From assembly GCF_009601705.1 (NCBI RefSeq), contig NZ_CP045687.1, forward strand, positions 408,630 through 472,629: a stretch of DNA of 64,000 nucleotides. The letters run 5' to 3'. Below are positions 4,826 through 58,030 of this stretch, piece after piece (positions within the stretch are counted from its first letter, which is position 1; each line of letters opens with the position of its first letter). Origin of the DNA: Sulfolobus sp. E5-1-F (GTDB taxonomy: Archaea > Thermoproteota > Thermoprotei_A > Sulfolobales > Sulfolobaceae). A model generated the notes under the pieces. That model was not told the origin of the DNA. It searched no databases and was given only the letters and a program-made list of their open reading frames with translations. The position numbers and the translations under genes are program-made.

Positions 4826-4864
4826 TACCAGATTATATGAGAAAATTACGACGAAGTAATTTTA

Positions 4865-4949
4865 TGCGGGGGACGGGATTTGAACCCGTGCAGGCCTTCG
4901 CCAGCGGAGCCTCAGTCCGCCCCCTTTGCCCTGGCTCGGGCACCCCCGC
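4865..4949 (-). tRNA. tRNA-Leu (anticodon GAG)
   Basis: Read on the minus strand, 85 nt fold into a cloverleaf. The acceptor stem is GCGGGGG paired with CCCCCGC, the D stem CCC/GGG, the anticodon stem GCGGA/TCCGC with loop CTGAGGC (anticodon GAG), and the T arm ACGGG-TTCAAAT-CCCGT. The variable region of about 14 nt is long, as expected for the class II tRNA-Leu. The discriminator base is A. CCA is not encoded, and no intron is present. It decodes CUC and CUU. The 3' end faces the accessory region at 1-4864, the side on which archaeal elements usually integrate. Confidence 0.95.
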
Positions 4950-5434
4950 ACACCAATACTTTATATTAACTAGGTATAAAGTTTTACCATAGAATATGAG
5001 AGAGGGAGTTTATGAAGGAGGTAAATGTTCCAAACTTTTAAAATGTAATTCGGGTACGAGACCCAGGTTAAGAAGTTCTTCTTTTGGAGTTAGAATAGCT
5101 TATGTTAGTATGAAGGGATACTCTATGGTTTTGATTTATTTTAAAGTATAAGTAATATAAAAAGAGATTTGTCCTACATAAATATATGAGCATAGGAGAA
5201 ATTCAATAAATTGAGAGTCTAGACAAATACTCAATATTGCTTATGTTATTAATTTGGATTAAAATACGTTAGGGGAAGCTTCATTATCTTGGTGAGGACA
5301 GTTTATTATCTCTACTTTAGTTTAAATTCAGAATCTACAGAAATGTAAAATTAGATAAAGCTAGTTTTGGCTACGTAAAAAGTTTTAGAGTGGTCTCTCG
5401 CTTAGTTGTTCTTTAAACTTAAGTTGAAAGTGCA
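4950..5434. other. 485-nt region between tRNA-Leu and the MFS gene
   Basis: This region carries no confident gene. It holds the possible 51-codon fragment at 4996-5151 and otherwise AT-rich sequence broken by stops in all frames. A TATA-like ctttaaact at about 5412-5420 probably serves the transporter gene at 5435. Confidence 0.4.
4996..5151 (+). pseudogene. 51-codon fragment, possibly the tail of a formylglycine-generating-enzyme-like protein
   Basis: An ATG-initiated frame encodes 51 residues including GVYEGGK and RSSSFGVRIAYV. The pattern of a Gly-Gly turn followed some 20 residues later by Arg-Ser-Ser-x-Phe-Gly-x-Arg resembles the C-terminal end of the formylglycine-generating enzyme/SUMF1 fold, where an RGGSW motif precedes a GFR motif. 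The usual Ser-Trp is replaced by Lys-Cys. If so, only the last sixth of the domain survives. The resemblance is by eye and weak; a chance frame is possible. Confidence 0.25.
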
Positions 5435-57250: not shown

Positions 57251-57484
57251 ATGGCAGAAGTTGTAAGAGCCTATATTCTCGTCTCTACTGCTGTTGGAAA
57301 GGAAATGGAAGTAGCGGATATGGCTAAAAAGGTATCTGGTGTTGTAAGAGCAGATGCAGTCTATGGTGAATATGACGTAGTAGTAGAAGTTGAAGCTAAG
57401 TCATCTGACGATTTAAAGAAAGTAATATATGAGATAAGAAGGAATCCGAACATAATAAGGACCGTGACTTTAATAGTAATGTAA
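57251..57484 (+). CDS. Stand-alone RAM (Lrp/AsnC ligand-binding) domain protein
   Basis: A 77-residue protein made only of the RAM domain found at the C-terminus of Lrp/AsnC regulators (AYILVSTAVGKEMEVADMAKK, in pieces; VYGEYDVVVEVEA; IRTVTLIVM). No helix-turn-helix is present, so it cannot bind DNA alone. Such proteins may form mixed oligomers with full Lrp regulators, including the one at 11705, or bind amino acids directly. It has its own leaderless promoter and ends before an RNA-rich intergenic region. Confidence 0.85.
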   Translation: MAEVVRAYILVSTAVGKEMEVADMAKKVSGVVRADAVYGEYDVVVEVEAKSSDDLKKVIYEIRRNPNIIRTVTLIVM

Positions 57485-57541: not shown

Positions 57542-57600
57542 TAGATCAGTCTTTTAATTTTTCTACATTAACTTCAGTTCGTCCCTGCCACATCACTTGA
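57542..57600 (-). ncRNA. C/D-box small RNA candidate, possible 16S rRNA methylation guide
   Basis: Minus strand, in order: C box GTGATGT (57596-57590, last base off consensus), the 12-nt guide GGCAGGGACGAA, D' box CTGA (57577-57574), a weak C'-like TAATGTA, an AT-rich second guide, and D box CTGA (57549-57546). The first guide contains GCAGGGACG, a 9-nt complement of CGUCCCUGC, which from memory occurs in archaeal 16S rRNA just before the conserved CACACCGCCC segment. The D+5 rule would place methylation on the U of that CGU. The spacing suits a C/D sRNA of about 51 nt. The weak C' box is the main reservation. Confidence 0.55.
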
Positions 57601-57610
57601 TAATCACAAA

Positions 57611-57680
57611 ATCCGGGGGTGACCCTCCTGCGATCATTTTACCCCGGTACTCGGGGATTGACCTAAAAATCACGCAGGCC
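57611..57680. ncRNA. GC-rich structured element, RNA family unknown
   Basis: About 70 nt of strikingly GC-rich, self-complementary DNA lie in an AT-rich gap between two genes that converge on it. An outer stem, CCTGCG (57627-57632) with CGCAGG (57673-57678), encloses a perfect hairpin, CCCCG (57642-57646) with CGGGG (57652-57656). A competing pairing, CCGGGG (57613-57618) with CCCCGG (57642-57647), would break the inner hairpin. The C/D-box candidate is immediately adjacent. On the minus strand a TATA-like aatttaatc near 57701-57709 would start RNA at about 57680. I cannot match it to tRNA, H/ACA or other known folds. Confidence 0.4.
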
Positions 57681-57712
57681 AATAAAATTAGTTTAAGGAT
57701 AGATTAAATTTT

Positions 57713-58030
57713 TTATCCTCGATTACTATCAACTACCTCTACTTGTTCCTCTTCCTCATCTTTTTCCTCTTCTAACATCTGTAACTTCTTTAACACCTCT
57801 ACTAGCAACGCATCTAATTGTGCAACTTTAGCCTCTAAAAAGGCTATGCTCTCATCATACTTAGCATTCCCTTCTTTTTCCTTATTTTCCTCTTCTCTCT
57901 CAAAGTCTCCTTCGAGTCCTTTCTTTATAAACAATTTGACTAAATCAGTCATTTGAATGCCTAATTCATCAGCTTTCTGTTTAAGTTCGTCATACATCCA
58001 CTCTGGTAATGAAAGATGTATAGTTGGCAT
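57713..58030 (-). CDS. Ribbon-helix-helix protein with C-terminal coiled coil
   Basis: A 105-residue protein. Residues 1-40 look like a ribbon-helix-helix domain (TIHLSLPEWMYDELKQKADELG, in pieces; QMTDLVKLFIKKGLEG), followed by a very acidic linker (EREEENKEKEG) and a heptad-patterned helix (ESIAFLEAKVAQLDALLVEVLKKLQMLEEEKDEEEEQ, in pieces) suited to dimerisation or tetramerisation. It is probably a DNA-binding regulator of unknown target. A second, smaller ribbon-helix-helix gene lies divergent at 58180. Confidence 0.72.
   Translation of the reverse strand: MPTIHLSLPEWMYDELKQKADELGIQMTDLVKLFIKKGLEGDFEREEENKEKEGNAKYDESIAFLEAKVAQLDALLVEVLKKLQMLEEEKDEEEEQVEVVDSNRG

Follow-up and report, generated by a model that had tools for sequence, protein, structure and literature searches.

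An unannotated small RNA gene of the Sulfolobales, probably an H/ACA-like guide related to Pyrobaculum sR205

Results

A conserved small RNA gene on the minus strand

The 64,000-nt stretch of Sulfolobus sp. E5-1-F DNA analysed here (the window) carries a small RNA gene that is unannotated and occurs in most genomes of the order Sulfolobales. Judging from sequence comparison, the product of this minus-strand gene is probably a pseudouridylation guide of the H/ACA-like kind, the counterpart in Sulfolobales of Pyrobaculum sR205, acting on U1917 in helix 69 of 23S rRNA (rRNA positions are in E. coli numbering, set by alignment of the 21-nt helix 69 segment). Coordinates of the element and its parts are given in Table 1.

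The first-pass annotation of this DNA had pointed to a GC-rich, self-complementary patch at 57601-57690, lying between two convergent genes and adjoining a C/D-box candidate. All of this was borne out: the GC fraction is about 0.51 at 57580-57669 compared to roughly 0.27-0.38 in the surroundings, the flanking genes are of Lrp/AsnC type (57251-57484, plus strand) and RHH type (57713-58030, minus strand), and a C/D-box sRNA candidate adjoins the patch. The RNA-coding strand of the patch is the minus strand. Its folding energy is modest (z of -1.2 on the plus strand and -2.0 on the minus strand) and by itself is no proof of a structured RNA; the proof is comparative. In the window, Rfam and ARAGORN report a single RNA gene, a tRNA-Leu (GAG) at 4864-4950 on the minus strand.

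By DNA search, the interval is present in 7/7 genomes of the window's genus, with weak matches in other genera. The narrow covariance model R1, built from 8 sequences, matched all 31 Sulfolobaceae genomes searched, with one strong place per genome, and 123 of the 197 genomes of the order; some of the weaker order-wide matches appear to belong to a different guide type with the tail AGGCUCCAC. Model R2 was built from 25 sequences, the matches of families f8, f6 and f11 with that tail being left out. At E<=0.001 it matched 53 of 299 phylum genomes, strongly across the order and with no match outside it. A pattern scan of genome contigs returned unrelated records only, and one of viral contigs for 16S returned no match.

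Table 1 Features of the putative guide RNA locus. Positions are those of the window; all features lie on the minus strand.
Feature	Position	Strand	Basis or remark
Putative H/ACA-like guide RNA element	57610..57682	-	R1 match 57618-57682, R2 match 57610-57682; covariation; Rfam link
TATA-like box AAATTTAATC	57702..57711	-	26-27 nt upstream of the conserved 5' end of the RNA
5' guide arm UUGG	57679..57682	-	Proposed pairing with 23S 1919/1920-1923, putative and short (2-4 bp)
GA stem, 5' strand CCUGCG plus U	57672..57678	-	Both-sided changes in 6/7 pairs
GA, one side of kink-turn-like loop	57670..57671	-	Alignment
Apical hairpin, 5' strand CCCCG	57652..57656	-	Both-sided changes in 3/5 pairs
Apical hairpin, 3' strand CGGGG	57642..57646	-	5-nt loop with invariant GU between the strands
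AUGA, bulged strand of kink-turn-like loop, putative L7Ae site	57634..57637	-	Conservation
GA stem, 3' strand U plus CGCAGG	57627..57633	-	Covariation
3' guide arm GGGUCACCCCCGG	57613..57625	-	Complementary to 23S helix 69 CCGGGGGUAACUC, 12/13 positions paired
C/D-box sRNA candidate	57543-57600	-	Boxes in sequence; D' guide conserved
C/D sRNA, C box GTGATGT	57590-57596	-	Sequence
C/D sRNA, D' guide GGCAGGGACG	57578-57589	-	12 nt, conserved
C/D sRNA, D' box CTGA	57574-57577	-	Sequence
C/D sRNA, C' box TAATGTA	57564-57570	-	Sequence
C/D sRNA, D box CTGA	57546-57549	-	Sequence

Structure and covariation

In the conserved anatomy, a stem of 6-7 layers leads through a GA / AUGA kink-turn-like loop to an apical hairpin, and a 3' tail follows. 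In the 25-sequence alignment, double-sided changes occur in 9 of the 12 pairs, with 51 double-change cells and 98% of the cells paired; none of 500 shuffles was as high, and slid controls were 25-59% paired. Rows of family f2 were excluded from this count because MAFFT shifted the f2 stem by one column. The first-pass annotation had proposed covariation across Sulfolobales homologs as a check, which the minus strand of 57610-57682 passes, and the two nested stems it described are recovered as the conserved stem of 6-7 layers and the 5-bp apical hairpin.

The xGA / AUGAn loop between the covarying stems has the tandem G.A and the bulged strand of an embedded kink-turn. Its GA side is GA in Sulfolobaceae and variable (GA, AA, others) in other families, AUGA is unchanged in the 10 nearest relatives with its UG unchanged in 25/25 sequences, and the G and U of the apical loop are likewise invariant (25/25). 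The lower stem is truncated or absent, with no closing lower stem in Sulfolobaceae; outside this family the two arms can pair together, as in locus L169. The isolated MFE structure of the window differs from the conserved fold in some of the sequence windows tried.

The earlier suggestion of two alternative folds finds no support in conservation. A competing third pairing, UUGGCCU/AGGUCAA, is present in the window sequence and forms part of the MFE structure, but its partner strand is missing from near relatives, L037 and L034 among them, so it is no conserved alternative fold. Part of the self-complementarity of the patch is better explained by two guide arms that complement the two strands of the rRNA helix 69 hairpin. 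The complementarity between 5' and 3' arms in distant families was also considered as a conserved pseudoknot and dropped, the arms being complements of the rRNA hairpin strands.

Relation to sR205

Bernick et al. 2012 is reportedly the source for PyrR205 / sR205, an H/ACA-like sRNA of Pyrobaculum. The corresponding Rfam family, RF02803, gave no match in the window even at E<10, and Rfam as a whole found nothing relevant for the element there. In family f10, RF02803 matches the same loci as R1, several of them below the cut-off; its score at the R1 loci of G190 and G196 is 37.3 against a cut-off of 35.6, and it is above the cut-off also in G226, three genomes in all, whose tails read GGGUCACUCCCGGCCAUA. 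The assignment of the window element to sR205 therefore follows a chain from the window through R1/R2 and f10 to RF02803. As the window fails the RF02803 cut-off that the loci in these three genomes pass, we file its element as a divergent homologue and not as a scored member; and as the link runs via f10 and R2 is without matches outside the order, no Pyrobaculum genome was reached directly. The sR205 RNA is discussed by Toffano-Nioche et al. 2015 (PMC4652768), where H/ACA-like guides are described as detected specifically in Pyrobaculum. The first-pass reading of the patch as an undescribed structured RNA is thus right as to a structured, covarying RNA on which Rfam is silent in this genome, but the RNA is not of a new kind, since it links to Pyrobaculum sR205.

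An ANA/ACA box is expected about 14-16 nt 3' of the pocket; NCA at 13-17 nt was found in only 1 of 24 Sulfolobaceae loci and in 16 of 25 loci outside the family. A canonical H/ACA arrangement with the pocket inside the hairpin was rejected, the 5' strand of the inner loop varying in both length and sequence. A further H/ACA-like RNA, L181 (G094 C1:582411-582469), has an RF02803 score of 35.1 and a different tail, GGGACUCCCCUGGGCAAA, and its target is therefore probably different.

Complementarity to helix 69

The tail GGGUCAC(U/C)CCCGG is complementary to helix 69, beside U1917. Unconstrained two-arm scans of 16S and 23S rRNA ranked many chance sites; it was the 3' arm that pointed to helix 69, which was then tested. 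The 23S rRNA at helix 69 reads GGCCGGGGGUAACUC-UG-ACCCUC in G000 and GGCCGGGAGUAACUC-UG-ACUCUC in f10, f8 and f7 genomes, and the tails GGGUCACCCCCGG and GGGUCACUCCCGGCC pair with the respective 5' strands apart from a single conserved mismatch, C x A1912. The pairing extends to 13-14 of 15 positions in 14 genomes, the window's own 23S included, with duplex energies of -22 to -26 kcal/mol (0/200 shuffles as low), and no rRNA site ranks above helix 69 for the tail in G049, G147, G087 and the readable part of the G000 23S. Guide position 8 and rRNA position 1909 match in all 14 intact-tail genomes, as U with A in 8 genomes and as C with G in 6. On the 23S tree this exchange seems to amount to about one evolutionary event (two exchanges were counted, a number that oddly placed long rows may have inflated); it is thus evidence for the pairing but not a set of many independent proofs.

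The two-arm arrangement of a guide, which leaves U-N unpaired in the target, is strong on the 3' side; on the 5' side, pairing is 2-4 bp with A1919 often unpaired. The 5' arm reads UGGG / GGAG / CGGU in relatives, and f10 members with GGAG place an A opposite U1921 where Sulfolobaceae place a G opposite C1921.

In L060 (G016), L034 and L039 the 3' guide arm is about 2 nt short (GGGUCCCCC(C)GG), and the G016 arm pairs well with helix 69 in a bulged register (-20.5 kcal/mol). The second H/ACA-like guide type of f8/f6/f11 (L160 1501-1556, L161, L162, L163 1501-1556, L154 and L175) has the 3' arm AGGCUCCAC, which complements 16S GGGUGGAGCC beside a U (position 912 of the G087 16S). In several Sulfolobaceae (G012, G013, G010, G015) the distal 3' arm is lost and pairing with helix 69 is no better than that of shuffles.

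Gene context and the neighbouring C/D-box sRNA

The shared gene order is ABC - Lrp-like - element - RHH - RHH - metallo-hydrolase. At locus L007, the element and the C/D sRNA are inverted as a pair relative to both neighbour genes, and at L002 and L003 the element is retained although the RHH gene is displaced; the element thus behaves like a transcription unit of its own. The distance from an upstream TATA-like hexamer to the element is 25-31 nt in 17 of the 24 Sulfolobaceae loci; in other families (14/25) the hexamer is farther away, at about -35 to -44, fitting the longer 5' arm there.

These arrangements bear on the possibility that the patch is a riboswitch-like or 3'-UTR element of the neighbour genes, with the two alternative folds of the initial suggestion. 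Although the competing hairpin is possible in the window sequence and some f6 elements appear to sit just 5' of a putative NTPase gene, that hairpin is without conservation, the L007 element is turned against both neighbours, L002 and L003 keep it with the RHH gene displaced, and it has a TATA-like box of its own; we regard this explanation as very improbable. The related element in family f6 (L151, L152, L153, L155) lies just upstream of a same-strand frame with a start like that of a P-loop NTPase (LGTAGAGKST in L152), for which it is possibly a leader or shares a promoter.

The neighbouring candidate has the C/D and D'/C' boxes of a C/D-box sRNA and an rRNA-complementary guide: its D' guide pairs with 16S ACGUCCCUGC, the 16S being read in relatives, and would direct 2'-O-methylation of 16S at ACG-U-CCCUGC. 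Twenty of 24 Sulfolobaceae loci have it downstream of the element, as against 0 of 25 other loci, a lineage-specific pairing of an H/ACA-like and a C/D guide. In Sulfolobaceae the element is probably co-transcribed with this sRNA, the two RNAs then being separated.

Discussion

Helix 69 is an intersubunit bridge with universally conserved pseudouridines. In the mechanism that we favour, L7Ae would bind the kink-turn and Cbf5-Nop10-Gar1 would assemble on the stem. The helix 69 strands would be captured by the single-stranded 3' arm together with the short 5' arm, and Cbf5 would then isomerise U1917, U1915 being less likely. Helix 69 and the peptidyl transferase centre are the sites of archaeal pseudouridines (PMC7991803), and those at 1915/1917 in haloarchaea are assigned to Cbf5 plus sRNA (PMC2584109).

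Alternatively, an L7Ae-bound RNA could assist the folding of helix 69 as an antisense chaperone, by means of the long 3' arm, and guide no pseudouridylation. With a 3' duplex of 13-15 nt, longer than the usual H/ACA arm, a very short 5' arm and, in Sulfolobaceae, no visible ACA box, the RNA would suit such a role. However, the end of the duplex directly adjoins U1917, where a pseudouridine is universally conserved (PMC2584109), and an H/ACA-like guide is what the family link points to, so that we consider a chaperone unlikely.

The loss of the distal guide arm in G010, G012, G013 and G015, where the hairpin and the C/D neighbour are retained, raises another alternative, namely that in Sulfolobaceae outside the window's genus guiding has ceased and the RNA is a structured leader aiding the processing of the downstream C/D-box sRNA. 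We give this little credence, as GGGUC is retained in all four of these genomes and genus g3 carries the RNA without a C/D neighbour; it is moreover inapplicable to the window, where the arm is intact. It is also doubtful that both guides of Sulfolobaceae stay on one transcript and act as a single hybrid RNP modifying both ribosomal subunits; if true, Archaea would have an equivalent of the hybrid C/D-H/ACA scaRNAs of eukaryotes.

An H/ACA-like guide family of the kind hitherto described for Pyrobaculum probably extends across the Sulfolobales, including genetically tractable relatives, with helix 69 as its likely target, and the mechanism of guides having no lower stem or clear ACA box becomes directly testable.

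Compared to sR205, the element has the same stem - kink-turn - hairpin layout, equally without a proper lower stem, and its loci coincide with those of RF02803 in f10. The 3' tail is nearly identical, GGGUUACCCCGGCC versus GGGUCACYCCCGGCC, the Pyrobaculum arm being known here as the Rfam consensus only. The window member differs in that it lies below any reported RF02803 score, lacks an NCA box, has a shorter tail of 13 nt and is followed directly by a C/D-box sRNA.

Among canonical archaeal H/ACA sRNAs (Pyrococcus, Haloferax, Sso1), Sso1 of S. solfataricus is the H/ACA sRNA for Psi35 of tRNA-Tyr. The element resembles these RNAs in a kink-turn placed about 9-10 stacked layers above the target-binding region and in a predicted target that is an rRNA pseudouridine, whereas in Sulfolobaceae it has no pocket-closing lower stem, no ACA box and very unequal arms. 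The neighbour, in turn, is like archaeal C/D-box sRNAs in its C, D', C' and D boxes and in a D' guide of 12 nt that complements 16S rRNA. Dicistronic precursors have been described with tRNAs or other C/D sRNAs (PMC7994747), and the neighbour differs in being apparently co-transcribed behind an H/ACA-like guide.
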